NCBI RefSeq assembly: GCF_013362815.1
Contig: NZ_JABFVK010000049.1
Coordinates: forward strand, 62,001-126,000
Length of the DNA stretch: 64,000 nucleotides
Source of the DNA: Hamadaea sp.
GTDB taxonomy: Bacteria; Actinomycetota; Actinomycetes; Mycobacteriales; Micromonosporaceae
Direction: 5' to 3'
Both the position numbers and the translations under genes were made by a program. The notes beneath the pieces were generated by a model that was not told the origin of the DNA, ran no database searches, and saw only the letters and a program-made list of their open reading frames with translations. Shown here one piece after another: positions 26,015 through 47,192 of the stretch; position 1 is the stretch's first letter; each line of letters starts with the position of its first letter.

Positions 26015-26024
26015 CCACTCGCGA

Positions 26025-30827: not shown

Positions 30828-31699
30828 ACGGCTGCCTTTCCGTAGTCGTAGAAGCCCCGGCCCGTCTTCCGGCCGAGGTCGCCCTCGCGTACCTTGTCGA
30901 GCAGCAGGTCACACGGGCGGCAGGCGGGCTCGCCGGTCCGCTCGTACATCGCCGCCAGCGAGTCCACGAGGTTGTCGATGCCGATGAGGTCGGCGGTGCG
31001 AAGTGGGCCGGTCGGGTGCCCGAGGCAGCCCTGCATCAGGTCGTCGACCGCTGCGACGCTCGCGATTCCCTCGCCGACGATGCGCGCCGCCGAGTTGATC
31101 ATCGGGTGGAGCAGCCGGCTCGTGACGAACCCCGGCGCGTCGCGTACGACGATCGGCTTGCGGTTCAGGCACCTCATCAGCCACTCGACGGAGCGCATCG
31201 TCGCTTCGCCGGTCCGGTCGCCCCGGATGACCTCGACCATCGAGATGGCGTACGCCGGGTTCATGAAGTGCGTGCCGACGAGGTCCTCCGGGCGCGACAC
31301 CCATTCGGCCATCTCGTCGACCGGGATGCCGGATGTGTTGGAGATCAACGGCGTACCGGGGTCCACAATGGAGGAGATTTCGCCGAGGACTTTGGCCTTC
31401 GCACTCGGCGACTCGACAACGGCCTCGACGACCGCGATCGCGCGACCGCAGTCGTTCAGATCGACCGTCGTCGTGAGCTTCCCGGGCGTACGGTCCGGCG
31501 GCACCACACCCAGCAGCGTCGCGTGCCTGGACTGCTGAGCGATCTCCGCTCGGGCCCGGCTGAGGATCGACTCGTCCAGATCGACCAGGAGGACGTCGGC
31601 CCCTTGGCAGCGCGCCATGGTGGCGATCCCCGTGCCCATGACCCCCGCGCCGATGATGGCGATCGGGCGGGCCGTCCCACCGTCTTCGCTGGCAGACAT
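30824..31699 (-). CDS. FkbK-like 3-hydroxyacyl dehydrogenase
   Basis: 291-aa NAD-dependent dehydrogenase of the 3-hydroxyacyl-CoA dehydrogenase fold: Rossmann motif IAIIGAGVMGTGIA, then SNTSGIPVDEMAEWV and GTHFMNPAYAISMVEVIRG (catalytic His). In methoxymalonyl-ACP assembly it oxidises the glyceryl-ACP hydroxyl. First gene of the fkbKJIHG-like operon. The 73-bp gap to the glutamate mutase gene holds its promoter and one ACCCCTA half-site (31769-31775). Confidence 0.9.
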   Translation of the reverse strand: MSASEDGGTARPIAIIGAGVMGTGIATMARCQGADVLLVDLDESILSRARAEIAQQSRHATLLGVVPPDRTPGKLTTTVDLNDCGRAIAVVEAVVESPSAKAKVLGEISSIVDPGTPLISNTSGIPVDEMAEWVSRPEDLVGTHFMNPAYAISMVEVIRGDRTGEATMRSVEWLMRCLNRKPIVVRDAPGFVTSRLLHPMINSAARIVGEGIASVAAVDDLMQGCLGHPTGPLRTADLIGIDNLVDSLAAMYERTGEPACRPCDLLLDKVREGDLGRKTGRGFYDYGKAAV

Positions 31700-31772
31700 G
31701 CCGCCCCTTTCCCACTCCGATACGCGATCCGACTACCGGCACGCTATTGACGGTCCTTGCGAGGGAACACCC

Positions 31773-33107
31773 CTACAGTGCGGTGCCGCCCCCTGTTATC
31801 GCGGTCGCCGAGGAGGTGCGGCTTCGCGCCGGAAGCGACGGCTGCTCGCTGTCGAACTTCTGCCGCACGTAGTTGAGATCGGCCAGCAGTCCGGACGCGG
31901 TCACCCGATGCCCGCCGACGGTGCGTACGAGCTTGCGCAGGGGCATCGCGCCGATCTCGGCCCACCGAAGCCGGCCGGTGTCGTCGATGTAGCCACGAGC
32001 CCGGCCCGCGTTGTCCGGATGCAGGCAATAGGGCACGTCGAGGTACCCGTGCTGGAAGGCGAGCACCAGTGCGCGTCCGACATCGCTGTCCAGGTTCAGC
32101 ACTGCGCTGATGAGCGCGTACGCCTCGGCATAGATCTGCGAGTCCGGCGCCGGTGGCGGCACGTCGGCGACGCCGTAGGTGCGGGCCCAGTCCTCGGCCG
32201 TCTCCAGCGCCTCGACGTTCTCCTCGATCGTGGGAATCCGGATCGACTCCGCGACCGTCTTGACGATGAGGCGTTCCGATCCGGTGGCGGCCGCGACGCG
32301 TACCGCCTCGCCGAGCAACCGGCGCGCACCGGGCGGCGTCGTCGGATACACGCCCATGTACGCATAGATCACCACGTGCCAGTCCTCGGTGGGCAGCATC
32401 TCCGCGCAGAGCCGGCGGAGCGCCCCGACCGCTTCGATGTCCTGATCGAGGCTGGTCTGCTGGGCATAGCTGACCGAAACGCTGGACACGCCCCGGGAAC
32501 AGAAGAACAACGCCTCCAAGACGGTCACCGCAACCAGCAGGCTCGGCGGGCACAGCTGCCCCATCAGGCAGCCTCCGAAGGTCTCCAGATGCGGCCGGGC
32601 GGCGGTGGTCAGCGACACGAAGAGGTCGACGCATTCCTCCCAGTTACGCACGGACTCCGCGAGCGGCGTCTGCCCGTAGGGAAGGCAGTAGGAGACCGGG
32701 CCGCCCTCGGTGGCGGTGATCCCGACCTGGGCGAGAGCGGTGAAGATGTGCTGGGGGACGGCGGATCCGTGCCGCACCTGGACCGGGAACGCCGGCTCGT
32801 GCAGATCTCGCAGAACGGCCGCCGTCGTGGCGGCGTCGTGGCTGGCGATCGGATAACCGTTGAGCCCGGTGCCGTCGCGCAGCGCCCGGCGGACCGCGTC
32901 CAGGTCGCCCACCCGGGTGAAGCTGTCCAGCGTGATGGTTCCGACGGTGGCCGCCCGCGCCCGTCTCGTGGCCAGCAATCCTGCCCGCATCTGCTCGGGA
33001 CGGCCGAAACCCATCCGCGGCTGCACCACGAGATGACCGGCCGCTCGCATCCGGCGTACGTGGCGGCCGAAGTCGATTCCCGCCGGGCTCACGGCGTCTG
33101 CGGTCAT
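31773..33107 (-). CDS. Glutamate mutase large subunit (VinI/MutE-like)
   Basis: 444-aa catalytic epsilon-type subunit of adenosylcobalamin-dependent glutamate mutase, converting L-glutamate to L-threo-3-methylaspartate. Residues RMGFGRPEQMRAGL, HGSAVPQHIFTALAQVG and GGPVSYCLPYGQTPLAESVRNW are the conserved TIM-barrel substrate/cofactor segments. The gene follows the small subunit with a 4-bp overlap. In the vicenistatin route this is the first step of the starter unit. The C-terminal tail of about 25 Ser/Thr/Arg-rich residues is extra relative to the core. Confidence 0.92.
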   Translation of the reverse strand: MTADAVSPAGIDFGRHVRRMRAAGHLVVQPRMGFGRPEQMRAGLLATRRARAATVGTITLDSFTRVGDLDAVRRALRDGTGLNGYPIASHDAATTAAVLRDLHEPAFPVQVRHGSAVPQHIFTALAQVGITATEGGPVSYCLPYGQTPLAESVRNWEECVDLFVSLTTAARPHLETFGGCLMGQLCPPSLLVAVTVLEALFFCSRGVSSVSVSYAQQTSLDQDIEAVGALRRLCAEMLPTEDWHVVIYAYMGVYPTTPPGARRLLGEAVRVAAATGSERLIVKTVAESIRIPTIEENVEALETAEDWARTYGVADVPPPAPDSQIYAEAYALISAVLNLDSDVGRALVLAFQHGYLDVPYCLHPDNAGRARGYIDDTGRLRWAEIGAMPLRKLVRTVGGHRVTASGLLADLNYVRQKFDSEQPSLPARSRTSSATAITGGGTAL

Positions 33108-33607
33108 GGCGTCAGGCTCGCCTCGATGGGCAGCCTCGACTGCCGCTCCGGCAGCGTACGCAGGAACTCGTGGAACTCGATGCCGTCCCGAGCGCCGTCG
33201 TCGAACACCGCGTCGAAGCCGCCTTCAAGCAGCTCGGCGACCCGGTCGCCCAACGGCGTACCGGTGATGCCGAGCTTGCCGCCGATGATCGTCGGCGTAT
33301 CCTTCAGGCGGTCCTCGGACCGCAGTCGGCCGATCAGCCGCAGGCCGTCCTGGCAGCCGTGCCCGTTCACGCTGCTGATGACGATCAGCGTGGGCGCGAT
33401 CCGCAGGCATTCCCGCACGAGCCGCTCGTCGGAGACGCACGAGCCGAGGTTGACGACCGAATAACCGAGCTCTTCCAGGAACAGCTGGAGGAAGACCAGG
33501 TTCCAGGTATGCGCGTCGGACGCGGTCGCGCTCACGACGACGGTTCCCAGACGAGGGACTGGTGGCGTTGCGTACGAGTTGGTTTCAGACGTCATAGGAA
33601 CGCACAT
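33104..33607 (-). CDS. Glutamate mutase small B12-binding subunit (VinH/MutS-like)
   Basis: 167-aa cobalamin-binding sigma subunit. The B12 motif reads SDAHTWN: Asp 31 and the cobalt-ligating His 33 are conserved, but the Gly of DxHxxG is Asn 36, a variation to note. VVNLGSCVSDERLV, ISSVNGHG and IGGKLGI complete the Rossmann-like fold. ATG 33607 or ATG 33595 can start it; either overlaps the decarboxylase gene. Forms a heterotetramer with the large subunit encoded next. Confidence 0.9.
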   Translation of the reverse strand: MCVPMTSETNSYATPPVPRLGTVVVSATASDAHTWNLVFLQLFLEELGYSVVNLGSCVSDERLVRECLRIAPTLIVISSVNGHGCQDGLRLIGRLRSEDRLKDTPTIIGGKLGITGTPLGDRVAELLEGGFDAVFDDGARDGIEFHEFLRTLPERQSRLPIEASLTP

Positions 33608-34793
33608 GCTCGACCCGCGACCTGGACTGGACCCGGCCGCCGCGGACGACGACCTCGAGCGGAGCCGGTCGGCCCAGGAACATCACGAGGCTCGCCGTGA
33701 GGCCGTATGCGCCGGCATTGGGGATGGCGACCAGGTCGCCCTCGCGCAGCGACGGCACGTCGATCTCGCGACCGAGCGCGTCCCCGGGTGTGCACAGTGG
33801 ACCAACGAGGCTGGCCTTCTCCACCGGTTCGCCCTCGTCGCAGCCGACGGCGACCGGCAGGAGCCGGCCGAGGCCGGACATGCCGCCGAAGGTGTTGATG
33901 CCCGCGTCGAGGATGACGAACTTGCGGCCCCGGCTGACCTTGACGTTGGTGACCCGGGTCAGCAGCTTGCCGCTCGACCCGACGAGGAAGCGCCCGGACT
34001 CGCAGGCGATGCGCGGCTGCCCGGTACGCCATTGCGGAAACGCGCGATCCAGCGCCAGTTCCAGCGCCGGACCCAGACCCGGATAGCTCTCCCGGGACCC
34101 CGGTACGCCATAAGGAGCGTTGAAGCCGCCGCCGATGTCGAGGTACTCCAGGGCGAGGTCGTGCTTGCGTTCGAGATCCAAGGCGAGCTCGATGGTGTGC
34201 TCGAAGGCGCCGATCAGACTGGCCTCGTCGAGCGCGCCGCTCAGCGGGAAACAGTGCAGCCCCCGGATGCGCGCGCCCTCGACTTCGCGAAGCCGGGGCA
34301 ACGTGTCGTCCAGCGCCTCGCTGTCGAAGCCGAACTGCGACGGTACGCCGGTCATGCGGATGCCGGTGGTCGCGTTGGCCGCGACGTTGTTGATCCGCAG
34401 CAGGCAGTCGGCGATTACGCCGTGCCGCCGTGCGACGCCCGCGACGCGCTCGAAGTCGGTGACCGAGTCCGTCGAGAACATCCGTACGCCTTGCCCGATC
34501 GCCTCGTCCAATTCGAGCGCGGTCTTGCCCGGTCCCGTGTAGAGGCAACGCTCCCCCGCGACTCCCGCCGTACGCACAGCGGCGAGCTCGCCGGAGGAAC
34601 TGATCTCGAACCGGCAGACGCGGCCCTCACCCGAAGCCAGCTCCTTGATCAGCTCCGGATGCGGGTTCGCCTTCACCGCGTAGTAGAGCTCGATCGGTTC
34701 CGGCAACGCCGCGAACGCCGCGTCCCGCGCGTCGGCGACCTCGTCGAGGTCATAGACGTACGCCGGGGTGGGCAACTCCTGGCCGCCGATCAT
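33585..34793 (-). CDS. PLP-dependent decarboxylase (VinO-like)
   Basis: 402-aa fold-III decarboxylase of the diaminopimelate/ornithine decarboxylase family. The PLP Lys lies in YYAVKANPHPELI, the phosphate-binding glycine loop in YLDIGGGFN, and the C-terminal active-site Cys in GPLCTPGD. By analogy with VinO it decarboxylates 3-methylaspartyl-ACP to 3-aminoisobutyryl-ACP. It overlaps its neighbours by 23 bp and 4 bp. Free diamino acids cannot be excluded as substrates from sequence alone, but context strongly favours the ACP-bound one. Confidence 0.88.
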   Translation of the reverse strand: MIGGQELPTPAYVYDLDEVADARDAAFAALPEPIELYYAVKANPHPELIKELASGEGRVCRFEISSSGELAAVRTAGVAGERCLYTGPGKTALELDEAIGQGVRMFSTDSVTDFERVAGVARRHGVIADCLLRINNVAANATTGIRMTGVPSQFGFDSEALDDTLPRLREVEGARIRGLHCFPLSGALDEASLIGAFEHTIELALDLERKHDLALEYLDIGGGFNAPYGVPGSRESYPGLGPALELALDRAFPQWRTGQPRIACESGRFLVGSSGKLLTRVTNVKVSRGRKFVILDAGINTFGGMSGLGRLLPVAVGCDEGEPVEKASLVGPLCTPGDALGREIDVPSLREGDLVAIPNAGAYGLTASLVMFLGRPAPLEVVVRGGRVQSRSRVEHVRSYDV

Positions 34794-36286
34794 GCCGCAC
34801 CGGTCAGGATCGCGTTCAGCGCCTCGCGCGCGTTCTTGCCGTGCGCCGTCAGCGGCAGCTCCCCGACCACCCGGCAGATCGCAGGCACCTTCGCCTTGTC
34901 GAGCCGCTGAGCCAGTTCCTTCAGCACCGTATGCGGCTCCAGCGTCGACTCGACGAAGATCACGAGATCGCGCTCGGCAGTCGGCGGCAGTACGGCGGCC
35001 GCCCGCACACCCGCGATGTCCAGCGCCGCCGCCTCGATCTCCAGGGTGCTCATGCGGATGCCCTTGCGCTTGAACATGTCGTCCCGGCGGCCCTCGAAGT
35101 ACAGGTACCCGTCGCTGTCGAGGCTGCCGTAGTCGCCGGTGTGCAGGCGCTTCTCACCCGTCGCCGGGTCCGGCCGGAACGTCTGTGCGGTCAGCTCCGG
35201 CAAGCGCCAGTAGCCGGGCATCACGTGCGGCCCGGTCACGACGATCTCGCCGACCTCACCGGTCGGCACGGGCTGCCCTTCGGAGTCGAGGATGAGCACG
35301 CGAGTGCCGGGCAGCGGAAGACCGACCGAGGTCGGCCGGAGACCGTCCTCGTCGGGGGGCACGATGGAGACACGTTTGCACTCCGTCTGCCCGAATTGGC
35401 GTACCACTCGGGTGCCTGGGAAGTTCTCGCGCAAGGCGGCGATGGTGCTGTCGGGTAGCGCGGCCCCGGTGTTCGTGAACATCCGGACCGGAGGCTTGGC
35501 CGCGGTGTCGCGTTCGGACAGTGTGACGATCATCGTCGCCAGCGACGGCACGATCGGCACCACGGTCGCGCCCACTTCGCGCATCCGCGACAAGAGCGCC
35601 AGATCGGACTCCTCCCCCGCCAGGACGAGCGTCGACCGGCCGAGGAAGCAGAGCAGGATCTTGTAGAGGCCGTAGTCCCACGAGATCGGGAACCGGCAGA
35701 ACACCACGTCGGTCGGACGGTACCCGAGGACTTGGTGGATCGACCGGGAGGCGAAGGTCATCTGCCGATGCGGGCAGATGACTGCCTTCGGCAAAGCCGT
35801 GCTGCCGGAGGTGTAGACCAGCGTGGCGACGTCGTCCGGAGCGACCTCCGCCGGAAGCTGAAGCGCCGTCCCGGCGGCCGCCACGATGGCCGGCCACAAC
35901 GTCGTCGCGTCGTGCACCGGCACCTCGGTCAGGCCGCTCAGCTTGGCGGCGGCCTCTCCGGCGGCGATCACCAGGGACGGCTCCGAGTCCGCGAGGACCG
36001 CCCGTTGATGGAACTCGCGCATGTCCTTGTTCAGCGGAACGAAGACGACGCCGAGGCGTACTGCGCCGAGGAACATCGCCACCAGCTCGTGGCGGCTCGG
36101 CAACTGGACGACGAGCCGGTCGCCCCGGCCCACGCCCTGCTCGCGCAGCCAGGCGGCGAACGCCCAACTGAGGTCGACGAGCTCGCGGTAGGTCACGGAG
36201 GCGTCGGCGTCGCGTACGGCGCAATTTCCGGGGGCCTGGGCCGCCGCCTCATCGAGCAGGGTATGCACAAGATCGCTTGCGGCCAC
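34790..36286 (-). CDS. Beta-amino acid:ACP ligase, adenylation enzyme (VinN-like)
   Basis: 498-aa stand-alone adenylation enzyme. A3 is LVYTSGSTALPKAV, A5 GQTECKRV, A7 HTGDYG, A8 GRRDDMFKRKGIRMST and A10 LPLTAHGKNAR (catalytic Lys). The residue run FPISWDYGLYK is in the substrate-pocket region and contains an Asp that could bind the beta-amino group, as in VinN. Expected role: activate 3-methylaspartate and load it on the ACP at 38250. Its stop overlaps the decarboxylase start by 4 bp. Specificity is inferred from context. Confidence 0.88.
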   Translation of the reverse strand: MAASDLVHTLLDEAAAQAPGNCAVRDADASVTYRELVDLSWAFAAWLREQGVGRGDRLVVQLPSRHELVAMFLGAVRLGVVFVPLNKDMREFHQRAVLADSEPSLVIAAGEAAAKLSGLTEVPVHDATTLWPAIVAAAGTALQLPAEVAPDDVATLVYTSGSTALPKAVICPHRQMTFASRSIHQVLGYRPTDVVFCRFPISWDYGLYKILLCFLGRSTLVLAGEESDLALLSRMREVGATVVPIVPSLATMIVTLSERDTAAKPPVRMFTNTGAALPDSTIAALRENFPGTRVVRQFGQTECKRVSIVPPDEDGLRPTSVGLPLPGTRVLILDSEGQPVPTGEVGEIVVTGPHVMPGYWRLPELTAQTFRPDPATGEKRLHTGDYGSLDSDGYLYFEGRRDDMFKRKGIRMSTLEIEAAALDIAGVRAAAVLPPTAERDLVIFVESTLEPHTVLKELAQRLDKAKVPAICRVVGELPLTAHGKNAREALNAILTGAA

Positions 36287-36351
36287 TCCAGGCTCCTCTT
36301 CGCCGAGGACACGGCAGCCGGATCAGCCACCCGGCCGCCAAGTCGAGGTCG

Positions 36352-36561
36352 TCAGTTCTCGATGAGGCTCAGGGCTCCGCCCGGGCATGCCAGCACGGCA
36401 TCCCGCACGGCGGTACGCAGGCCGGCGTCGGGCTCGGCGGTCAGCAGGATCACCCGGCCGTCGTCCTCGTCCTGGTCGAAGACGGCCGGTAGCGCCATCG
36501 CGCACGATCCGGACGCGACACAACGTTCGCGATCGATCTCAACCTTCACGACTTCGGTCAT
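36352..36561 (-). CDS. Small 3Fe-4S-type ferredoxin
   Basis: About 69-aa ferredoxin starting MTEVVKVEIDRERCVASGSCAMALP at ATG 36561 with a strong GAGGGAG site; the track's extra 12 residues have none. Only three Cys positions fit a cluster (C-x5-C, and CPGGAL near the C-terminus), the pattern of the single 3Fe-4S ferredoxins that feed P450s in actinomycetes. It sits between the two adenylating enzymes, 65 bp upstream of the VinN-like gene, so it is co-regulated with the starter genes. No P450 is in the window. Confidence 0.85.
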   Translation of the reverse strand: MTEVVKVEIDRERCVASGSCAMALPAVFDQDEDDGRVILLTAEPDAGLRTAVRDAVLACPGGALSLIEN

Positions 36562-36625
36562 GACTCCCTCTCGGCTCGCCGGACGCAGCGTGGCCACCCT
36601 AGGGAGCGCGCTGCCCGTAGCCGCG

Positions 36626-36642
36626 ACCCCTAGGAGCCCCTA
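36626..36642. promoter_or_regulatory. ACCCCTA-N3-GCCCCTA element upstream of ferredoxin/starter operon
   Basis: ACCCCTA (36626-36632) and GCCCCTA (36636-36642), 10 bp apart, overlapping the stop of the VinM-like gene and lying 65 bp upstream of the ferredoxin ATG. A related ACCCTAGGGAG palindrome is at about 36597. The same two-box layout recurs at 39561 and 44559, suggesting a cluster-specific regulator site. Confidence 0.6.
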
Positions 36643-38130
36643 AATCTCGCGGGCCGCCGACGCGAGACGAGGCCGGTCGACCTTCCGATTGGCGTTCAAC
36701 GGCAGGTCGTCAAGGTGATGAAAGGAGCGCGGGATCATGCGCTCGGGCAGGACGTCGCGGAGATGGCGTACCAGGGTCATGGCGGGCACCGGAGTTCCCG
36801 TGTAGAAGACGACCAGTTCCAGTCCACTCTCGGTCTCCCGAGTCACCGTGACCGCATCGGCGACCCCGGCACAGCCGCGTACGGCGTGGTCGATCTCGGC
36901 CAGCTCCACCCGCCAGCCCTGTACCTGCACCTGACTGTCGAGCCGGCCCAGGTACGCGTATTCGCCACCGTCGAGCCGGCGTACCCGGTCACCGGTCCGG
37001 TACCACCTCCGGCCGTCGAGTTCGAGGAATCGACCGATGCCGTCAGCCGGGTCGAGGTAGCCCGGCGTCAGCTGCGTACCGGTGACGCACAGTTCGCCGT
37101 CGCCGTCGGTGGGGCGGCCGTCCAGCCCGAGGACCAGGCAGTCGTGACCGGGGTGGATCGCGCCGATCGGCACCACGCCGTTGACCGCTCCCGCTTCGGA
37201 ACGGTCGCCTTCCCACCGGTGCCGAGAAACGGTCACGGTCAGCTCGGTCGGGCCGTACAGGTTCTCCACTCTGGACTGATCGGCGGCCAGCTGCCATTCG
37301 GCCGCATCGGAGCACCGCAAGGCCTCACCGGCGAAGAAGCTCCATCTGAGGCCGGGCAACGACCCTTCCCGCAGCCCGCCGAGACGGCGCACCAGACCGA
37401 TCGCGCTGGGCGTCGAGAACCACACCGTCATACGCCGCTCGCGTACGAAGGCCGGCAGATCACGATAGGCCTGGCCGGGCAACGGATGCACCGCCGCGCC
37501 CGCGCCCCAGGCGCAGAAGAGGTCGAACATCGCGCAGTCGAAGTTCAGGTCGAACGTCTGCGAGAAGACGTCTTCGCCGGTGAAGTCGTACCGGCTGTCC
37601 AGCAGGTCGAAGTAGTGGATCGCGTTGCCATGCGTGATCGGTACGCCCTTGGGCCGCCCGGTGGAGCCCGAGGTGAACAGCACGTACGCCACGTCCTGCG
37701 GATCGACGAGGCTGGGCTCGGTGAGCGCCCGGCCGGAGCCGAGCTCGTCCGGCAGCAGCAACGGCACCTGCGCCGTGATCTCGCCGAGCCGTCCCGCCAA
37801 CGCAGCACCTTGGTCGTCGGCGATGAGGGCGGTGACCCTTACGGCTTCCAGCATGCTCCGCAGCCGCTCCGGCGGAAATGAGGGGTTCATGGGGACGACC
37901 GGGACACCGGCATACAGCCCCGCCAGCAGACCGGCGTACGCCGCCCGGGTCTTGCCGGCCAGCACGGCGACCGGACCGACTTCGGCTCGTTCGCGAAGCC
38001 GTCCGGCCCAGGTCGACGCCGTCGCATGGAGTTCGTCATAGGTGACGGTTCCGTCCGCGGCGTACAACGCCGGCCGGGCCGGGGAAGCCGACAGCCCGCG
38101 CAGCACCCGATGGTGCAGTCCGTGGTTCAT
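36640..38130 (-). CDS. Stand-alone amino acid adenylation enzyme (VinM-like)
   Basis: About 496-aa A-domain-only protein. A3 LFTSGSTGRPKGVP, A5 NLYGPTELTVTV, A7 YRTGDRVRRL, A8-type LDSQVQVQGWRVELAEI and A10 PLNANRKVDRP are intact. By analogy with VinM it adds a protecting amino acid (alanine in vicenistatin) to the 3-aminoisobutyryl-ACP amino group. ATG 38130 (MNHGLHHRVLRGL) has a GAGGACGG site; the 743-aa track ORF extends into the opposite-strand ACP gene. Which amino acid it activates is not decided by the sequence here. Confidence 0.86.
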   Translation of the reverse strand: MNHGLHHRVLRGLSASPARPALYAADGTVTYDELHATASTWAGRLRERAEVGPVAVLAGKTRAAYAGLLAGLYAGVPVVPMNPSFPPERLRSMLEAVRVTALIADDQGAALAGRLGEITAQVPLLLPDELGSGRALTEPSLVDPQDVAYVLFTSGSTGRPKGVPITHGNAIHYFDLLDSRYDFTGEDVFSQTFDLNFDCAMFDLFCAWGAGAAVHPLPGQAYRDLPAFVRERRMTVWFSTPSAIGLVRRLGGLREGSLPGLRWSFFAGEALRCSDAAEWQLAADQSRVENLYGPTELTVTVSRHRWEGDRSEAGAVNGVVPIGAIHPGHDCLVLGLDGRPTDGDGELCVTGTQLTPGYLDPADGIGRFLELDGRRWYRTGDRVRRLDGGEYAYLGRLDSQVQVQGWRVELAEIDHAVRGCAGVADAVTVTRETESGLELVVFYTGTPVPAMTLVRHLRDVLPERMIPRSFHHLDDLPLNANRKVDRPRLASAAREI

Positions 38131-38143
38131 CCGTCCTCGCAAA

Positions 38144-38225
38144 CTAGGGGATCTGCCCGGCCGCCGTCGCGTGCTACTTTTCGCACGGCCACGCGGGTCG
38201 TATCTCGATAAACCCGTTAAACCCG
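38144..38225. promoter_or_regulatory. Divergent promoter region with CCCCTA box and AAACCCG repeats
   Basis: Between the VinM-like gene and the oppositely transcribed ACP. It holds a single CTAGGGG (38144-38150, complement CCCCTAG) 14 bp from the VinM-like start, and a direct repeat AAACCCG-TT-AAACCCG (38210-38225) 25 bp upstream of the ACP start. Confidence 0.4.
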
Positions 38226-38249
38226 ATACACGATGAATCGGAGCCGACA

Positions 38250-38498
38250 ATGAGAGATGAGCATTTCGACCAGACGCTCCGGAGCCACTTGCCGTTCCTG
38301 GGGCCGGGCGAGGCGCTGCACGACGACGCCGACCTGCGCGACCTTGGGCTCGACTCGCTGGGCACCGTGGAGCTGCTGGCGTCGCTGGAAAACCGTTACA
38401 ACGTCCGGTTCGTCGACGACGCGCTGACGCTCGAGACGTTCGCGACGCCGGGCACTTTGTGGAACACCCTTTCGCGGATGGCCGGCACCGCGTCGTAG
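38250..38498 (+). CDS. Starter-unit acyl carrier protein (VinL-like)
   Basis: 82-aa ACP with phosphopantetheine Ser 36 in LRDLGLDSLGTVELL. It is the expected carrier of 3-methylaspartate, its decarboxylated form and then the dipeptide. Starts at ATG 38250 with GGAG 9 bp upstream. Unlike every other starter gene it lies on the plus strand, alone, facing the transacylase gene (28 bp between the two stops). Confidence 0.9.
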   Translation: MRDEHFDQTLRSHLPFLGPGEALHDDADLRDLGLDSLGTVELLASLENRYNVRFVDDALTLETFATPGTLWNTLSRMAGTAS

Positions 38499-38525
38499 CA
38501 GGCATCGCGAAACCGCGGCATACCG

Positions 38526-39482
38526 TCAGGCCGCGTCGGCGAACGCACGCCGCCGGCGCGGCCGCAGGGCGGTCCGCGGCGAGATCGGTACAGTGTGGAC
38601 GTTCCGGGTGGTCACCCCGACCCGGCCGAATAGACTGTCCGGGCCGGACACGTAGACCGTCTGAACGCCCTGTGCCACCAGCGTGGCCACCACCGACGGC
38701 CAGCGCACCGGGCGGACGAACCCCTCCGACAGCATCGCCCGCACACCGGCGCCGTCGCGTACCAGCCGCCCGTCTTGATCCGCGACGATCGGGATGGCCG
38801 GATCGGCGAAGGTGAGCTGCGCGAGGACCTCCGTGTCCATCAGCTCCCGCAGACCGCCGAAGACGCTGCAATGCATCGGCGGGCGCATCACGTACAGCGG
38901 CAGCGCCCCTTTCGCCCGCAGGCTGGCGGTCAGCCGGTCCGAGACTCGTTCGCGTACCGAGATCATGTAAAGGTCGTCGTCGACGTGGCAGGACATCTCA
39001 TGCCACTCACCGTCCGCGTCGAGTTCCGCTTGCAGGGCCGCGAGCACGTCCGGCGGCGTCCGGGCGAAGGAATGCGTGATGACGTCCGTGTGCTCGGAGC
39101 TGAAGTACCGCTCCAGCACGCGCGCCCGCTGCACGGTCAGCCAGATCGCCTCCTCCACGGAGAGCACCCCCGTGTACGCCGCGGCGGCCTTGCCGCCGAA
39201 GCTCGGGCCGGCGCAGACGACCGGGCTGAGCCCGCTGGTCTCCTCCGCCCATCGAGCCAGCGCCAGGCAGACGATCAGGAACGCCACCTGGGCGTACTCG
39301 CTGTAGTCGCCGGTCGCCTCGTGATACCGGTCGAGCAGCGAGTCGCCCAGCACCTCGTCGGCGACGGCCGTCAGCTCGCGGGCGTACCGGTTGATGAGCA
39401 TGAACCTCGCGGTCTCGTCATAGCGCATCGGCCCCATGCCGGGAAAGACGATCGCGGTCGCCTCGGAAACGCCGGTCTCCAA
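38526..39482 (-). CDS. Trans-acting acyltransferase (VinK-like)
   Basis: About 318-aa malonyl-transferase-fold protein. The nucleophile elbow reads CAGPSFGGKAAAAYTG, GPSxG instead of GHSxG, as expected for VinK-type enzymes that move dipeptidyl groups instead of malonyl. SATAIVFPGMGPMRYDET marks the fold start and the C-terminal VYVSGPDSLFGRV the core end. Expected role: transfer the protected beta-aminoacyl group from the starter ACP to the PKS loading ACP. TTG 39482 has AAAGGGGG 6 bp upstream; the track's GTG 39518 lacks a clear site but cannot be excluded. Confidence 0.85.
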   Translation of the reverse strand: METGVSEATAIVFPGMGPMRYDETARFMLINRYARELTAVADEVLGDSLLDRYHEATGDYSEYAQVAFLIVCLALARWAEETSGLSPVVCAGPSFGGKAAAAYTGVLSVEEAIWLTVQRARVLERYFSSEHTDVITHSFARTPPDVLAALQAELDADGEWHEMSCHVDDDLYMISVRERVSDRLTASLRAKGALPLYVMRPPMHCSVFGGLRELMDTEVLAQLTFADPAIPIVADQDGRLVRDGAGVRAMLSEGFVRPVRWPSVVATLVAQGVQTVYVSGPDSLFGRVGVTTRNVHTVPISPRTALRPRRRRAFADAA

Positions 39483-39560
39483 CGCCTGCCCCCTTTCCGG
39501 CACGTGCTCTCGGGGCACGTACGGCCCCGCCAGGCTAAGCCGGGGCCGACTGCGCCTCCC

Positions 39561-39578
39561 ACCCCTAGGCCGCCCCTA
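39561..39578. promoter_or_regulatory. ACCCCTA-N4-GCCCCTA element upstream of VinK-like gene
   Basis: ACCCCTA (39561-39567) and GCCCCTA (39572-39578), 11 bp apart start to start, between the stop of the LAL regulator gene and the start of the transacylase gene. Same boxes and near-identical spacing as at 36626 and 44559. Confidence 0.6.
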
Positions 39579-39586
39579 GCTTGGCG

Positions 39587-42364
39587 TCAGCTCGCGATCA
39601 CCACCGGATGCCCGCCGCCCACCGCACCGTCGTCGAACGGATCTGCGTTCATCTCCACCGGAGACTCCTGTTGTCCTTCGAGTCCCGCCGACAGCCCGAC
39701 TCGGCCGCTCACGCCGAGCTTCTTGTAGACCCGGGTCAGGTGCTGTTCGACGGTGCTCACGGTGATGTAGAGGCGACGGCCGATCTCGCGATTGGTGTGG
39801 CCCCGTGCGGCGAGCGCGGCCACGCGCCGCTCGGCCTCGCTCAACGTCGCCAGGTCGTTGACCGCGACGAGCGGGCTCGGCGGAGTGGGCGCGACCTCGG
39901 CGATGACCGGCTGCGTCGCGCCGCGCAGACCGGCGTCATCGCCTTGGTACGCCTCCAGAGCGGCCAGTACGCGAGCGAGCTCCAGCCGGTCGCCCGCCAG
40001 GCGAAGAAGCGGCACCGCCTTGTTCAGCAGCCGTTCGCGCTGCCCCGCATCGCTGGCGGTGGCCAGCACCCGCAGCGAGATGCCCTGCGTCCGATAGTCG
40101 TTGGGCTGGACCTTGTCCAGCTGCTGCGTCACCAGATCCCGGGCGAGCTGGGTGTGCCCCAGCCGCACGTACGCCTCGGCGAGATCGCTGCGGATGGGGA
40201 TGAGCGCCGGCACGTCGATGCCACGCTCGCTCATCAGCTCGCCGCAGAACTGGAAGTCCCGGGCGGCGGCCAGCACCCGGTTGTCCGCCAGGTGGTAGTG
40301 GCCGCGAGCGTGCAGGTAACGCAGTCCGGCGATGGAGGTGAACATCGCGTCCGGCACCATTTGCGCGAACGTCTTGTCGGCGGAGTCCAGCTTGCCCTTC
40401 GCGGTGTTGGCCAACGCCTGCGTGGCCAGCGGCCAGCCGACGAGCACTCCCCAGCACCGCGCGTCGAGGAGCCCCAGCGCCGTGACCGAGTCGGCGAGCG
40501 CCTTGTCGATGTCGCCGCTGCGCAGCGCGATCTCAGCCTGGATGTTGTAGAGCAGGGCCTGCCACGTGACCGCGTTGCGCCGCGAGGCGTGTTCCATCAG
40601 CCGCTGACACCACACGGACGCCCGATCGAGCGCGCCACCGCAGACGAGCGCCAATAGCGCGCCGGTGACGACATCCACTGTGGAGTCCTCGAGGGAACAG
40701 CTGTGCAGCAGGTGCTCGGCGCTGGCGACGGCGGCCTCGCCCGGGCCGTCGGCCCACATGTAGGTGAGCGTTCGCAACGCGGTCACCCACGGGTCGTCCG
40801 ACCGCTCCTGGGTGGTCGCCGACCCGGCCGAACCGTACCCGCCGGGCTCCTCGCCGTAGATCACGTGCCGGGCGAGGTCCAGTTCGGCCAGCACGCGCTT
40901 GTCACCCGGGTGCGGCGCGCGTTCCAGCGCCGCGACCGTCTTGTCGACCAAGGCGTTGTCGCCGTGCCACAACCCGTGGCGGAGCAGGGTGACCGCCTGG
41001 CGGCCGGAGAGCTTGCCGAGTTCCGCCGCGTCCTCCAGAACGCTCAGGTACGGCGCGACGGCCAGCGGCGCGTTACGCCACATCGCGCGGGTTAGGGCTT
41101 CGGTGATGACGACGCGCTCGCGGTCGTCCGCCGTCGCCGCCAGCGCCAGCTTCAGATAGCGGATGGCCAGATCGCTCTGCTCGCCGGTCATCGTCTCCGC
41201 CGCGGCGGCCTGGAGCATCAGCACCGGCCAGCCGCCGGTCACGTGACCGGACTCGGCGATGTGCGCCGCGACGTCGACGGCGGGACAGTTCTGCTGATAG
41301 AGCAGCTCGGCCGCCCGGCTGTGCAGAGCGGAGCGCGCGCAGGCGCTGAGCGTGCCGAGCGCGACCGCACGAGCGGCCTCATGACGGAACCGGCCGTCGC
41401 AGAGCACCCCGGCGAGGGCCAGGATCTCCATGATCTCCACGACGGAGGTCTGCCCGATGTCCAGCAGCCGCGACAGCGACTGAGGCGTGGCGTGCTTGTC
41501 GAGCACCGCGATCCCCTGTGCGACCGTCAGCAGCTGCGGGAACCAGCGGTGCAGGCAGGTGGCGATCGCCTGGCTGAACGCGGCGCCCACGACCGGCCGG
41601 CCCTCGTCTTTGAGCCGGCCGTCGCGCATCGCCGTGCGGTAGTCCTCCATGAGCGCGTTGACCAGCATCGGATTGCCGCCGGTCAACCGGTGATACGCCG
41701 GTGCCAGGTGTGCCGCGGCAGTCGGCCCGGCCGCCTTGGTCAGGGCCTCCGCGATCGCCGGTCCCGACATCGGCAGCAGCCGGAGCCGATGATGCGGCTG
41801 CCGGGTCAGCTCGGCGTGGAACTGCGAGTGCTCCGGCCGTGGGCGCTCGCATTCGGTCAGCACCATCATCACCGGCGCCGCGGCGATCCGCCGTCGCATG
41901 TAGAGCAGCAATTGCAGAGACGCGCTGTCGATGTGGTGCACGTCGTCCACCACGATGACGAGCGGCCGGTCGAGCGAGAGGCCCAGCACCGCACCGCACA
42001 ACGCCTGCACGACCTGCACGACGGCGTACGCCGCCAGGAACGAGCCGTCGTCGGCGACCGAGTCCATCGCCTCGGCCCGGGTCAGGTCGGTGAGGCGCTG
42101 GAGGACCTCCTTGGGCAGCTCGGCGCTGCGCAGGAGCTGGTCGATGACGCCGAACTGGACCGGCCGCTCGGTCAGCGACCCGGCGGCGGTGAGGACGAGT
42201 GCACCCGCTGCCGCCGCCGCGCTGGAGAACTCGTGCATGAGCGTGGTCTTGCCGGTCATCAGGCCCCCGCTGACCAACACGACCTGCCCTGCTTTGTCGG
42301 TGATGCGGGTGAGGAGCCTCTCCAGCATCAGCCTGCCGTCGCGGATCCCGACGTAGTTCGTCAT
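39587..42364 (-). CDS. LAL-type LuxR-family transcriptional activator
   Basis: 925-aa pathway-specific regulator of the large ATP-binding LuxR type. Walker A is SGGLMTGKTTL (residues 32-42), Walker B LVIVVDDVHHID (about 136), a long TPR-like middle follows, and a C-terminal LuxR HTH (LSEAERRVAALAARGHTNREIGRRLYITVSTVEQHLTRVYKKLGV, about residues 835-895). Walker A reads GGLMTGKTT, a G/A-rich variant of GxxxxGKT. It sits between starter and exporter genes and is the obvious activator of the cluster. ATG 42364 has GGGAG upstream. The 754-bp leader carries no gene. Confidence 0.92.
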   Translation of the reverse strand: MTNYVGIRDGRLMLERLLTRITDKAGQVVLVSGGLMTGKTTLMHEFSSAAAAAGALVLTAAGSLTERPVQFGVIDQLLRSAELPKEVLQRLTDLTRAEAMDSVADDGSFLAAYAVVQVVQALCGAVLGLSLDRPLVIVVDDVHHIDSASLQLLLYMRRRIAAAPVMMVLTECERPRPEHSQFHAELTRQPHHRLRLLPMSGPAIAEALTKAAGPTAAAHLAPAYHRLTGGNPMLVNALMEDYRTAMRDGRLKDEGRPVVGAAFSQAIATCLHRWFPQLLTVAQGIAVLDKHATPQSLSRLLDIGQTSVVEIMEILALAGVLCDGRFRHEAARAVALGTLSACARSALHSRAAELLYQQNCPAVDVAAHIAESGHVTGGWPVLMLQAAAAETMTGEQSDLAIRYLKLALAATADDRERVVITEALTRAMWRNAPLAVAPYLSVLEDAAELGKLSGRQAVTLLRHGLWHGDNALVDKTVAALERAPHPGDKRVLAELDLARHVIYGEEPGGYGSAGSATTQERSDDPWVTALRTLTYMWADGPGEAAVASAEHLLHSCSLEDSTVDVVTGALLALVCGGALDRASVWCQRLMEHASRRNAVTWQALLYNIQAEIALRSGDIDKALADSVTALGLLDARCWGVLVGWPLATQALANTAKGKLDSADKTFAQMVPDAMFTSIAGLRYLHARGHYHLADNRVLAAARDFQFCGELMSERGIDVPALIPIRSDLAEAYVRLGHTQLARDLVTQQLDKVQPNDYRTQGISLRVLATASDAGQRERLLNKAVPLLRLAGDRLELARVLAALEAYQGDDAGLRGATQPVIAEVAPTPPSPLVAVNDLATLSEAERRVAALAARGHTNREIGRRLYITVSTVEQHLTRVYKKLGVSGRVGLSAGLEGQQESPVEMNADPFDDGAVGGGHPVVIAS

Positions 42365-43118
42365 GCGCTACTCCCGGGCCTTCTCATCGGCGGCGCCGGC
42401 CGTCAGCGCGCCCGCTGCGGCGCACGTCCGATCGTCGATCCCTGCACGAGAGCCCGGCACAAGCTGCCAACACCCGCGGTATGTCTGGATACACGGATCC
42501 ATAGCTGTCTCCCCCGAGAACGTCTTCATGTCGCACCGATGAACCAGGAAGGCTCCTAGATCACCAACCCACCCGCGGCCATCGGGGAGTGATCGTCCAC
42601 TGCGCCACTGAGTCCACTCCAAAGTCGTTCATAAATATCGCTACGCGTGAATTGCCCGGCAGTCGGTTCCGATGGTATGACTGCCCGACATCTAAGCGCC
42701 GACATTGATGAGCCGCAACCCCCTAGGCAAGCACCTGTGGATAACACTGCGGTCGGACTTCCGATATTCCTCGATCACTCGCTCGGACGGACCAATTAGG
42801 ACATCGGTACCGTCTCGGGAGGATTTCGAATTCGGCCGAATTCCCTTGGCGTACTTCCGCGAACCTCCGGCGCAACCTGCGCGTTTCAGTAGGTGCACAA
42901 GTCGCCTCTTCGGGCTTTCGTCACATTGCCGCAATGCAATCGACAACAGCGCGCAATGCCACCGCGGCGTACCAGCGTCATCGATCAAGTGTGAAACGAT
43001 TACAGCAAGTCCACTTTGTCGCCAGAGTCGCACCGTTGCGGAAAGGAATGCCATGCGAAGGCCGGTGGAGCGACGCCCACCGGCCTTCGTGACGCTGGTT
43101 CGAGTGAGCCGCCCGGGT
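42365..43118. other. Long non-coding region upstream of the LAL regulator gene
   Basis: 754 bp with no supported gene; the short ORFs here (e.g. 42368-42622, 42692-43054) have poor codon bias and no recognisable product. A CCCCCTAGG box lies at about 42719-42727. GC is lower than in the coding DNA. It probably holds the regulator's promoter and a long leader, and may hold the downstream part of the 43119-43445 gene's transcript. Confidence 0.5.
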
Positions 43119-43445
43119 TCAGGCCTGGTCGCCGGCCGGCACCTCGGCGACGGCTCGGGTGCCGACGATCGACGTGGGCTTGAACACGCCGAGCTTCGCC
43201 GTGCCGTTGAGCGAGTCGCCGTCGATCTTGACCTTGTAGTGGATCGTCATCGACATCGGCTTGCTGAGCTTGATGGTCCAGGTCAGGTCGTCGCCGTCGA
43301 CGACGCCGTCGACCAGCGGCTCGGGCCCGCTCGGACCGGTCAGGCTGCCGGTCAGGGTGGCGCCGGACGTGACGAGGATCAGTTCGCCCTGCATAGTGCC
43401 CATCGGAGTCTTCATGCTGACGTTCCAGGTGCCGTCGATGCTCAT
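43119..43445 (-). CDS. Small beta-rich protein of unknown function in the cluster
   Basis: 108-aa protein from ATG 43445 (GGAGG 6 bp upstream; the 153-aa track ORF is over-extended). Sequence is almost entirely alternating strands: GTWNVSMKTPMGTMQGELILV, ATLTGSLTGPSG, LTWTIKLSKPMSMTIHYKVKIDG. It looks like a small avidin/lipocalin-like barrel that could bind a hydrophobic ligand. No signal peptide and no Cys. I do not recognise a named family. It is the only gene between the LAL regulator and the metallophosphoesterase. Confidence 0.75.
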   Translation of the reverse strand: MSIDGTWNVSMKTPMGTMQGELILVTSGATLTGSLTGPSGPEPLVDGVVDGDDLTWTIKLSKPMSMTIHYKVKIDGDSLNGTAKLGVFKPTSIVGTRAVAEVPAGDQA

Positions 43446-43661
43446 CGGGCCTCCGTTCGTTGGCGGTGATTGACGCGGACGGCCGTCCGCGACGGCCGGC
43501 CACCGGCGGGCCCGAGTGCGGCTTGGTCTTCCGGTCCGCGCCAGGGAATCGTCCACTTCGGCCAGTCTGGTCGCGCCCACCGTGGCGGTGATCGTAAGCC
43601 TGGTAGCAGAGGCGTGACGACCCGTAATGACCTGGGAGAAGTCGATCTTAGGGGGGTGCTG

Positions 43662-44519
43662 TCAACCGGTTTTGCCCGGCGCGAACACCCGGCGAAGTGG
43701 TTGCGGATCGGCCGTCCGCCGTTTCCATTCCCGGGGATAGCCCAAGGACACCTCCTCGAAGCGTACGCCTTCGTAGGTGGTCATCCGGGGAATGTGGAGG
43801 TGCCCGTAGACCGCGACGGCGGCCCGGAATCGCGTATGCCATCCGGCCGTACGCTCGGTGCCGCACCACTGGGCGAACTCGGGGAACCACAGCGGCTCAG
43901 TCGGTCTGCGGTCGAGCGGCCAGTGCGTGACCAGCACGGTGGGAACGGCCGGATCGACGGCGTTCAGCCGCCGTTCGGTCTCGGCGACCCGGTCGGCGCA
44001 CCACGATTCGCGGTCGGGATAGGGATCGGGATGCAGCAACATCTCGTCCGCGCAGACGACACCGGCCTCGTACGCCTTCTTCAGCGACTCCTCCTTCGTC
44101 GTCGTGCCCGGCGCACGGAACGTGTAGTCGTAGAGCAGGAACAGTGGCGCGACGGTGACCGGGCCGCCGAAGCCGTCCCATTGGGCGTACTCGTCTTCGG
44201 GGGTGAGCACACCGATGTCACGGCACATCTGAACGAGGGCGCGGTATCGAAGGTCGCCGCGCAGGGTCACCGGGTCCTGGGGATGCGTCCAGAGCTCGTG
44301 GTTGCCGGGTGCCCAGATCACCTGGCGGAATCGCGTACGCAGCTGCCGCAGCGCCCACTCGACGTCTTCGAAGATCTCCCCGACGTCGCCCGCCACGATG
44401 AGCCAGTCCTCGTCGGACTCCGGTCGGATGCCCTCGACGATCCGGCGGTTCTCCGGATGCGCCACGTGCAGGTCGCTGACCGCGAACAGAGTACCCGCCA
44501 TCACCATGTTTTCGAGCAT
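43662..44519 (-). CDS. Calcineurin-type metallophosphoesterase
   Basis: 285-aa binuclear-metal phosphoesterase with all five motifs: SDLHVAHP, VAGDVGEI, APGNHELW, VTHWPLD and YGHLHIP. Soluble, no signal peptide. Shares a divergent promoter, including an ACCCCTA-N3-GCCCCTA element, with the type II thioesterase gene, so it is probably part of the biosynthetic regulon. Role unclear: dephosphorylation of a self-resistance intermediate or of a CoA/ppant-linked by-product are only guesses. Confidence 0.85.
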   Translation of the reverse strand: MLENMVMAGTLFAVSDLHVAHPENRRIVEGIRPESDEDWLIVAGDVGEIFEDVEWALRQLRTRFRQVIWAPGNHELWTHPQDPVTLRGDLRYRALVQMCRDIGVLTPEDEYAQWDGFGGPVTVAPLFLLYDYTFRAPGTTTKEESLKKAYEAGVVCADEMLLHPDPYPDRESWCADRVAETERRLNAVDPAVPTVLVTHWPLDRRPTEPLWFPEFAQWCGTERTAGWHTRFRAAVAVYGHLHIPRMTTYEGVRFEEVSLGYPREWKRRTADPQPLRRVFAPGKTG

Positions 44520-44558
44520 ATCCGCTGCTCTTCACCGACCTACCGTCCTCTGTGGCCA

Positions 44559-44575
44559 TAGGGGCGGGTAGGGGT
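44559..44575. promoter_or_regulatory. ACCCCTA-N3-GCCCCTA element in the metallophosphoesterase/thioesterase promoter
   Basis: On the complementary strand: ACCCCTA (44575-44569) and GCCCCTA (44565-44559), 10 bp apart, exactly as at 36626. It lies 40 bp from the metallophosphoesterase ATG and 32 bp from the thioesterase ATG, well placed to control both. Confidence 0.6.
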
Positions 44576-44606
44576 TGCCCGGCCATAGTCGATCGAGCAT
44601 CGTGAC

Positions 44607-45371
44607 ATGATGGCGACAGTAGGTCTTTCCGCCGACGCTTGGCTGCGGCGTTTTCATCCCAAGAGCGCCGCCGGGGACGTCGTCGTGTGCTTCCCGCACG
44701 CGGGCGGCTCGGCGAGCTATTACTTTCCCTTCTCCGCCGCCATGCCGCCCGACGTCGACATGCTGACGATCCAGTATCCGGGGCGGCAGGAGCGGCGTGC
44801 CGAGCCGCCCGTCGAGTCCGTGCCGGAACTGGCCGATCAGATCGCCGAGCTGCTGGCCGGCTGGGCGGACAGCCGGCTGACCTTCTTCGGGCACAGCATG
44901 GGCGCGACCGTGGCGTTCGAGGTCGCCCGGCGACTGGAGGCCGGCGGAATCGCCGTGCACGGGCTGTTCGCGTCAGGCCGCCGAGCCCCGTCGACCCACC
45001 GCGTCGAGGGTCTGCACCTCGGCAGCGACGCCGCACTCATCGCCGAACTGCGGGATCTGAGCGGGATGCCGGTCGAGCTGCTCGCCGATCCGGAGGTCGT
45101 CCAGCTGATCCTTCCGGTGCTGCGCAACGATCTGCGGATCGCGGAGACCTATCGCTACGAGCCGGACGGCAGCGAGTTGCGCTGCCCGATCGTGGCGCTC
45201 GTCGGCGACCAGGATCCCAAGGTCGAGGTCGCCGAGGCCGCGGCCTGGCAGCGGCACACCACCGGCACGTTCGAGCTGCGTACGTTCTCCGGCGGGCACT
45301 TCTTCCTCGTCGAGCACAAGGCGGCGGTCGTCGAGGCTGTCACGAAGCACGCAGTCGCACGGAACTTCTGA
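44607..45371 (+). CDS. Type II thioesterase
   Basis: 254-aa editing thioesterase of the alpha/beta-hydrolase fold. VVCFPHAGGSASYY starts the fold, the nucleophile Ser is in FFGHSMGATVAFE, and the His is in GGHFFLVEH. Type II enzymes clear mis-primed or decarboxylated acyl groups from PKS carrier domains. It is discrete, not fused to the PKS, and so is not the macrolactam-forming thioesterase. ATG 44607, weak ribosome site. Confidence 0.92.
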   Translation: MMATVGLSADAWLRRFHPKSAAGDVVVCFPHAGGSASYYFPFSAAMPPDVDMLTIQYPGRQERRAEPPVESVPELADQIAELLAGWADSRLTFFGHSMGATVAFEVARRLEAGGIAVHGLFASGRRAPSTHRVEGLHLGSDAALIAELRDLSGMPVELLADPEVVQLILPVLRNDLRIAETYRYEPDGSELRCPIVALVGDQDPKVEVAEAAAWQRHTTGTFELRTFSGGHFFLVEHKAAVVEAVTKHAVARNF

Positions 45372-45455: not shown

Positions 45456-47042
45456 CTAAGCCGAGGGAGCCGCGGCCAGGTCCTTCTCCTCGTCGTCCTT
45501 GTTCTCCTTGGCGCCGCCCGGGGTGATGTAGCCGACCGGCATCCGGCGCAGGATCACGAAGATGAGTACGCCCCACACGAGCGATACTCCGGCGCCGGTC
45601 AAGGCGGCGAAGTTCATGCCGTGCGTGAAGGCCTCCCGGGCGGCGGTCAGCAGTGGGCCGGCCACCTCCGGGGGCAGTGCGGCGGCGACCTGGAAGGCAC
45701 CGCCGAGAGTGCTGTGCGCCGCGTCGACGGCCGCCGCCGGAGCGCCGGGAATGGCCGTGTCGAGCATCTGGTGGTGGTAGACCGCCGCACCGACGGTGCC
45801 GAGGATCGCCACACCCAATGCGGTGCCGAGCTCGTCACTGGTCTCGGCCAGGGCCGACGCCGCGCCCGCCCGTTCTGGCGGAGCCGCGGTGAGCACGAGG
45901 TCGGCGATCAACGGCGCGGTCATCATCATGCCGGCCGCCACCGCACCCGAGCCGACCAGCAGCTGCCAGAGTTCGGCGTCCGGAGCCAGCAGGTAGAGCA
46001 CCCCGAAGCCGAGGGTCATCACGACCAGGCCCGTGCCGATGATCCGGCTGGGGCGTACCTTGGCGGCCAGCCCGACCGACAGGAACATGGCGACCATGAC
46101 CGCCGGAATCGTGACGAGCGACCACAACGCCGCGGTGAACGGGCGCATCCCCATCACCAGCTGAAGGTACTGGTTGGCGTAGAGGCCGATGCCGGTGAGC
46201 CCGAAGCCGGTGATGACCTTGGTGAGGATCGACATGGTGAACGGGCTGTTCTTGAACAGCCTCATGTCGATCAGCGGGGCGGGATGTCCCAGCTGACGCC
46301 GGATGAACAGCAGCCCGAACGCCAGACCCACGACGACCGCCGCGAGCGGCACGATCTCGAAGCCCTCGACGGCCAGCTGCTTGATCCCGTAGATCACGGC
46401 CACGATGGCGAACAGCGAGATCGCCGCGCCCAGCAGGTCGAACCGGCCGTTCTCCGGGGACTTGAACTCCGGCAACAGGAACGGCGCGAGCACCAGCAGC
46501 AGCGCCATCGCCGGAAGGTTGATCATGAAGACGGAGCCCCACCAGAAATGGTCCAGCATCAGGCCGGCGATGATCGGGCCGAGCATGATGCCGCTGGTGA
46601 GGCTGCCGGTCCAGATGCCGATCGCCGACTTGCGTTCCTTCTCGTTGTGGAACATGTTGCGGATCAACGCCATGGTCGACGGCATCAACGTCGCCGCCGC
46701 GATGCCGAGCACCGCCCGGCTGGCGATCAGCAACTCGGCGCTGCCGGAGTACGCCGCGGCCACCGACACCGCGCCGAACGCGGCCGCCCCGATCAGGAGC
46801 AGCTTGCGCCGCCCGATCCGGTCCCCGAGGCTGCCCATCGTGATCAGCGCGCCGGCCAATCCGAATCCATAGGCGTCCATGATCCACAGTTGTTGGGTCG
46901 CCGTAGGCTGCAAGCCCTCACTGATGAACGGCAACGCCAGGAACAGGATGCTGACATCCATCGAGATGATCAGACAGGGCAGCACCAAGACGGCCAGCCC
47001 GATCCATTCCCGGCTCCCGGCCTTGGACTCCACGACCGTCAT
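45456..47042 (-). CDS. DHA2-type MFS exporter of the cluster
   Basis: 528-aa 14-helix drug:proton antiporter. Motif A (MGSLGDRIGRRKLLLIG), SRAVLGIAAATLMPSTMALIRNMF, and GIWTGSLTSGIMLGPIIAGL are clear. Located between the thioesterase and the PKS genes, so it most likely exports the macrolactam and gives self-protection. A Lys/Glu-rich C-terminal tail (KENKDDEEKDL) is cytosolic. It is read from a 150-bp promoter region that holds one ACCCCTA box. Confidence 0.88.
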   Translation of the reverse strand: MTVVESKAGSREWIGLAVLVLPCLIISMDVSILFLALPFISEGLQPTATQQLWIMDAYGFGLAGALITMGSLGDRIGRRKLLLIGAAAFGAVSVAAAYSGSAELLIASRAVLGIAAATLMPSTMALIRNMFHNEKERKSAIGIWTGSLTSGIMLGPIIAGLMLDHFWWGSVFMINLPAMALLLVLAPFLLPEFKSPENGRFDLLGAAISLFAIVAVIYGIKQLAVEGFEIVPLAAVVVGLAFGLLFIRRQLGHPAPLIDMRLFKNSPFTMSILTKVITGFGLTGIGLYANQYLQLVMGMRPFTAALWSLVTIPAVMVAMFLSVGLAAKVRPSRIIGTGLVVMTLGFGVLYLLAPDAELWQLLVGSGAVAAGMMMTAPLIADLVLTAAPPERAGAASALAETSDELGTALGVAILGTVGAAVYHHQMLDTAIPGAPAAAVDAAHSTLGGAFQVAAALPPEVAGPLLTAAREAFTHGMNFAALTGAGVSLVWGVLIFVILRRMPVGYITPGGAKENKDDEEKDLAAAPSA

Positions 47043-47192
47043 GGTCGACCTACCCCCACTCGCTCACGCGCGTATAAGTTGCCATCGGCTTAGTTGCGTA
47101 TGCTGTACACTGTACCCAGCACTCTAAAGTGGTCACTTATCTCCGTCAACCCCTAAACCCGCGCTCCGAAGGCACCGGGAAATCGTTACGCA
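47043..47192. promoter_or_regulatory. Promoter region of the exporter gene
   Basis: 150 bp between the exporter start and the PKS stop. ACCCCTA (47149-47155) followed by the degenerate AAACCCGCG resembles the paired boxes elsewhere in the cluster. Also A/T-rich: TGTACACTGTAC-like repeats around 47103-47116 and TATGCTGTAC near 47099. Confidence 0.4.

Follow-up and report, generated by a model that had tools for sequence, protein, structure and literature searches.

Tandem TAGGGG promoter boxes in a macrolactam-type gene cluster of Hamadaea sp. and their predicted recognition by its LAL regulator

LAL regulators carry an N-terminal ATPase and a C-terminal LuxR-type helix-turn-helix (HTH) domain. 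Their prototype, MalT, acts on operators in enteric maltose promoters, which consist of G-rich direct repeats with the proximal box adjoining the -35 element, and it compensates for a poor -35. A 64,000-nucleotide stretch of the Hamadaea sp. genome (positions 62,001 to 126,000 of contig NZ_JABFVK010000049.1, here C36; the whole stretch is called the window) contains a macrolactam-type gene cluster with its own LAL gene, and TAGGGG boxes, single or in tandem, precede its transcription units. The layout resembles that of MalT promoters; it differs in the box sequence, TAGGGG(T), in a LAL detectably similar to MalT in the HTH only and in that no second activator was seen in the window's cluster. 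The repeated boxes are genuine control elements, set at a constant distance ahead of the cluster genes. We propose, with a probability of roughly 85%, that they form a class II activator operator of the cluster's LAL, abutting or replacing the -35 and co-activating most cluster units; the binding is predicted from sequence.

Other described systems share parts of this design. MilR, GdmRI/II, LodR3, SlnR/SalJ, AveR and PikD are cluster-situated LALs that activate type I polyketide synthase (PKS) genes. In SARP operators (ActII-ORF4, SanG, PolR and PimR type), the direct repeats are spaced by one helical turn and for most SARPs lie close to the -35, but the heptamer is CGGCAAG for PimR, SanG and PolR (PMC3367932), and no SARP was recognized in the window's cluster. 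MilO, a LuxR-family activator of mildiomycin, binds tandem direct repeats (PMC11784345). LALs as cluster activators and tandem heptamers near the -35 are already known; a TAGGGG/CCCCTA operator with fixed -10 spacing was not recognized for the PKS LALs or any other LAL in the open literature examined, subscription work (in particular SlnR binding work) lying outside that coverage, and two literature occurrences of the box sequence were primers.

TAGGGG boxes in the Hamadaea sp. genome

The first-pass annotation of the window had proposed a recurring ACCCCTA/GCCCCTA motif, with paired copies upstream of the ferredoxin/starter-unit operon and the transacylase gene (VinK) and in the divergent metallophosphoesterase/thioesterase promoter. 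All three pairs were found in place (Table 1), the first two as CCCCTA on the plus strand and the third on the minus strand. The repeats are therefore real; the functional sense, however, is TAGGGG toward the downstream gene, and the pairs read TAGGGG-N4/5-TAGGGG. Shuffled windows contained 0.02 paired sites on average, compared with three in the real one. Genome-wide tests were pattern searches, and across 7.45 Mb CCCCTA-N3-5-CCCCTA occurred at exactly four sites: the three in the window and C57:5637, upstream of the first PKS gene of apparently the same cluster on an 11 kb contig (C57). This contig encodes a PKS with an initial acyl carrier protein (ACP) domain and then KS-AT-DH-KR-ACP; it also codes for a P450, for an alpha/beta hydrolase and for a terminal PKS module that includes a thioesterase. 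Because the C36 PKS gene closest to the exporter ends in an ACP without thioesterase and PKS frames are truncated at the right end of C36 and at the left end of C57, C57 would most simply be the missing part of the same cluster. All four genomic pairs would therefore belong to one cluster, and the similar pair density elsewhere in the genome that the annotation had named as counter-evidence was not observed. The common operator on C36 and C57 in turn supports joining both contigs.

The single boxes listed in the annotation also exist, at 31769, 42719, 47149 and 38145 (given there as 38144; on the minus strand as CCCCTA). The TAG of the box at 31770 doubles as the mutase E stop codon. Two target assignments needed correction: the pair at 44559, placed in a divergent promoter, faces the thioesterase and not the metallophosphoesterase gene, and the 38144 box faces the ACP gene and not that of the VinM-like ligase. 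No degenerate second box at 10/11 bp was found in the single-box promoters of the cluster.

A downstream -10 element accompanies the boxes. Genome-wide, TAGGGG-N23-TANNNT had three matches, all in the cluster, and the reversed pattern seven; TAGGGG-N23-25-TANNNT had 14 matches, 7 of them in the cluster. A search at N22-26 recovered seven cluster promoters together with a separate family of dispersed repeats. Could the boxes be products of chance or repeats, CCCCTA being carried by GC-rich promoters? The window shows only mild enrichment of single boxes (10 MCCCCTA vs 4.3 expected), further ones occur elsewhere in it (e.g., at 4421, 24738 and 43649), and the dispersed repeat, which is palindromic, also contains TAGGGG. 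Against this, most of the listed singles are distinguished from the others by a correctly spaced -10 element; the pairs and the -10 coupling were not reproduced by shuffles, reversed patterns, other spacings or a control hexamer, and the dispersed repeat differs in its flanks and in its spacing, which is mostly 26. We rejected chance or repeats as an explanation that the comparative data below refute and that retains next to no probability.

The dispersed repeat is about 70 bp long, with the layout GTTGATCATGAACC-TAGGGG...CGACACGCCG...CCCTAGGTT-CATGATCAAC and inverted-repeat ends, and has well over a dozen genomic copies. These lie on contigs C5, C17, C18, C20, C28, C31, C32, C70, C91 and C99 (loci L008, L009, L011-L015, L018, L019, L029, L032, L035 and L036); nine loci compared with Rfam gave no match.

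Conservation of box spacing in VinK-selected loci

Eighty named loci were collected through a VinK alignment (a LAL-only contig scan yielded no relatives), covering Streptomyces, Kitasatospora, Micromonospora, Salinispora, Catellatospora, Amycolatopsis, Kutzneria, Saccharothrix, Actinomadura, Nonomuraea, Microbispora, Frankia and others. Relatedness among them varies, so that counts from them are not fully independent. With no motif presupposed, tandem repeats were counted for all hexamers at every gap between 0 and 19. TAGGGG at gap 4/5 was the strongest, with 92 observed repeats against 3.1 expected from the other gaps, and a second TAGGGG peak appeared at gap 14/15, corresponding to two helical turns. 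At least one perfect pair with a scorable flank was present in 57 of the 80 loci. TANNNT followed the proximal box at exactly 23 nt (23 sites) or 24 nt (46 sites) in 69 of 91 pairs and never at 22 or 25 nt, the background being 0.24% per position; a T directly after the proximal box was seen in 62-86% of sites. Unpaired TAGGGG boxes gave the same -10 distance peaks, which were absent for a control hexamer of equal composition. Eighty of the 92 sites lay upstream of homologues of the window cluster's genes (VinN 23, P450 15, hydrolase 14, first PKS 11, VinK 5, thioesterase 5, and others). Judged from these sequences, the TAGGGG element is a conserved regulon architecture and not a peculiarity of one cluster, in agreement with the annotation's picture of a cluster-wide, helically spaced promoter element.

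The fixed distance to the -10 could also be read as the signature of an alternative sigma factor, with TAGGGG as its -35 element. The usual -35 to -10 spacer is about 17-19 nt, and 23-24 nt is too long for it. As a -10, TANNNT belongs to the housekeeping type; tandem boxes spaced at 10/11 and 20/21 bp suit a protein lying along one helix face, and next to its box the exporter promoter carries a -35 of its own, TTGACG. We consider a sigma-factor element very improbable.

The LAL regulator as predicted binder

The LAL is the only DNA-binding regulator recognized in the window's cluster and the only GerE (LuxR-HTH) protein on C36, with none on C57; no other protein of the genome qualifies as a LAL at E<=1e-60. 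Its N-terminal ATPase matches AAA_16 (PF13191, E=3e-13) with a Walker A motif, GGLMTGKT, that fits GX4GK[ST], and its C-terminal HTH (GerE, PF00196, residues 840-891) finds its best PDB matches among NarL HTH structures. Across genomes the element follows LAL genes, which strengthens the annotation's choice of the LAL as candidate regulator. Within the same order, 61 paired sites were found in 38 genomes with a strong LAL match, compared with 3 in 23 genomes without. For complete genomes, 24 of 29 sites lay within 200 kb of a LAL gene, zones that make up 6% of bases (binomial 7e-25, relatedness ignored). Class-wide, the full element was present in 16 of 395 genomes (26 matches), the reversed pattern giving 2 matches in other genomes; a LAL was found in 12 of the 14 newly matched genomes vs 10 of 16 chosen same-family genomes without a match, and 12 sites were on the same contig as a LAL, within about 55 kb. 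Since pairs occur in several Micromonospora-type genomes that have a LAL and no VinK match, the element follows the LAL rather than macrolactam chemistry. The recognition helix is nearly invariant among LALs of box-bearing loci, which fits one operator sequence. In three relatives, inverted boxes TAGGGGTTACCCC(C)TA were observed about 5-7 kb from LAL genes (L068:2847, L076:3080 and L078:3506) and are possibly another arrangement of the same operator.

Several observations weigh against the LAL as binder or against a uniform element. No perfect pair was found in 12 of the 38 LAL genomes, some LALs that share the recognition helix lack a box within 10 kb, and only 11 of the 80 VinK loci contain a LAL within the roughly 20 kb covered (clusters being larger than the loci). 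Two cluster sites use N25, a spacing rare elsewhere, and -10 matches are poor in the thioesterase and LAL promoters. Operator plus -10 matches also occur in two genomes without a strong LAL match, L188 (G624:C11:328638) and L191 (G314:C139:2638), and would reflect either chance or a diverged regulator.

These last two matches would also suit another activator that travels with such clusters and binds the boxes (a SARP, a NarL-type response regulator or a global factor), with the LAL acting above it. The SARP layout, too, is a two-box direct repeat near the -35 (PMC3367932), small NarL-type LuxR proteins occur in several Amycolatopsis VinK loci with pairs, and regulators of other classes can occur in macrolactam clusters (PMC10662134). 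However, the LAL is alone among recognized regulators in the window's cluster, and the sites track counted LAL genes across genomes even where VinK has no match. The conserved unit is TAGGGG(T) and not the published SARP heptamer (CGGCAAG type, PMC3367932), and no BTAD/SARP domain was found among the scanned cluster genes, a scan outside which about 20 kb or more of PKS lies between the contigs. Overall, binding by such another activator appears unlikely.

With the LAL as activator, the boxes would be its operator half-sites. The LuxR/NarL-type HTH of one subunit would bind TAGGGG(T) directly upstream of, or overlapping, a degenerate -35. If TANNNT occupies -12 to -7, the proximal box would span about -42 to -36 and the distal box would lie one turn upstream, with box centers near -38 and -49. 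The predicted positions put the box at a fixed place adjoining the -35 and upstream of the -10, as in a class II operator; there the LAL would adjoin sigma region 4, contact RNA polymerase and compensate for the poor -35. The sequences themselves show the repeats, how they are spaced, their coupling to the -10, their conservation and their association with LALs in genomes; binding by the LAL, activation upon binding and a dimeric or oligomeric arrangement are what we infer. The starter-unit operon and the VinK, thioesterase, ACP, methoxymalonyl, exporter, P450 and PKS units would be switched on jointly by one LAL. Paired boxes stand before the starter operon, VinK, thioesterase and first PKS genes and single ones before the ACP, precursor and export units, a distribution that suggests graded promoter strength; at the exporter, a single box combined with a good -35 would fit weaker LAL dependence.

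Cluster organization and implications

The cluster holds the genes by which beta-amino-acid (3-Amp type) macrolactam clusters are recognized (PMC10662134): a VinK-type acyltransferase (PF21124), two AMP-binding proteins (VinN/VinM-type ligases), a stand-alone PP-binding ACP, MutE, a B12-binding protein and an Orn/DAP/Arg (pyridoxal phosphate, PLP) decarboxylase. At the starter operon, the likely ferredoxin ATG lies downstream of the predicted -10, after GAGGGAG. The weak -10 candidate of the thioesterase gene would make its transcript leaderless. The FkbK-like promoter has CAGGGG 20 bp, or two helical turns, upstream of its box. The LAL leader is about 330 nt long, and autoregulation through its box is uncertain.

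Table 1. Promoter elements and genes of the cluster (window coordinates unless a contig is named)
Feature	Position	Strand	Remark
Paired box TAGGGG-N4-TAGGGG, before ferredoxin/starter-unit operon	36627..36642	-	
Predicted -10 TAGGGT, ferredoxin/starter operon	36596..36601	-	N25 from proximal box
Paired box TAGGGG-N5-TAGGGG, before VinK	39562..39578	-	
Predicted -10 TAGCCT, VinK promoter	39532..39537	-	N24
Paired box TAGGGG-N4-TAGGGG, before thioesterase	44559..44574	+	
Weak -10 candidate CATCGT, thioesterase promoter	44598..44603	+	N23
Single box and -10 TACTTT, before stand-alone ACP	38145..38180	+	N24
Single box and -10 TAGCGT, before FkbK-like/methoxymalonyl operon	31741..31775	-	N23
Single box, directly followed by -35 TTGACG, N17, -10 TAGAGT, before MFS exporter	47121..47155	-	
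Single box far upstream of LAL gene	42720..42725	-	poor -10 TTAGAT
C57 PKS promoter: paired box, N25, TACGGT	C57:5637		
C57 P450 promoter: two TAGGGG boxes 14 bp apart, N23, TAGCAT			
LAL regulator, 925 aa, AAA_16 and LuxR-type HTH	39587..42364	-	proposed binder
Starter-unit operon: ferredoxin, VinN-type ligase, PLP decarboxylase, glutamate-mutase-like B12-binding and E subunits	31773..36597	-	
Methoxymalonyl-ACP type operon: FkbK-like, ACP, acyl-CoA dehydrogenase, FkbH, O-methyltransferase	27668..31699	-	
Stand-alone ACP (VinL-like)	38250..38498	+	
VinK-type acyltransferase	38526..39518	-	PF21124
Thioesterase	44607..45371	+	
MFS exporter	45456..47042	-	

Two neighboring features were also observed. 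A 153-aa frame of coding-like composition lies between the LAL leader and the metallophosphoesterase gene (43119-43580, minus strand) and had no match in Pfam or NCBIfam. Just outside the cluster, at 25028-26231, an XRE-family HTH/DUF5753 regulator is convergent with a DUF397 protein.

Many important polyketide clusters are under the control of LAL activators, and few defined operators are found in the literature examined. A sharp operator whose promoter geometry is fixed, and which was seen from Streptomyces to Micromonospora, Amycolatopsis, Nonomuraea and Actinomadura, makes the pairing of regulator and operator directly testable, and it offers a simple search pattern for LAL-controlled transcription units, for joining split clusters such as C36 and C57 and for activating silent clusters through expression of a single LAL. 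We give slightly better than even odds that the PKS-type LAL family has a general operator, TAGGGG-N4/5-TAGGGG-N23/24-TANNNT, throughout Actinomycetota, preserved in distant, non-orthologous clusters because the recognition helix is nearly invariant. If so, the element would predict LAL regulons and cluster borders, join fragmented clusters and foresee cross-activation by heterologous LALs.

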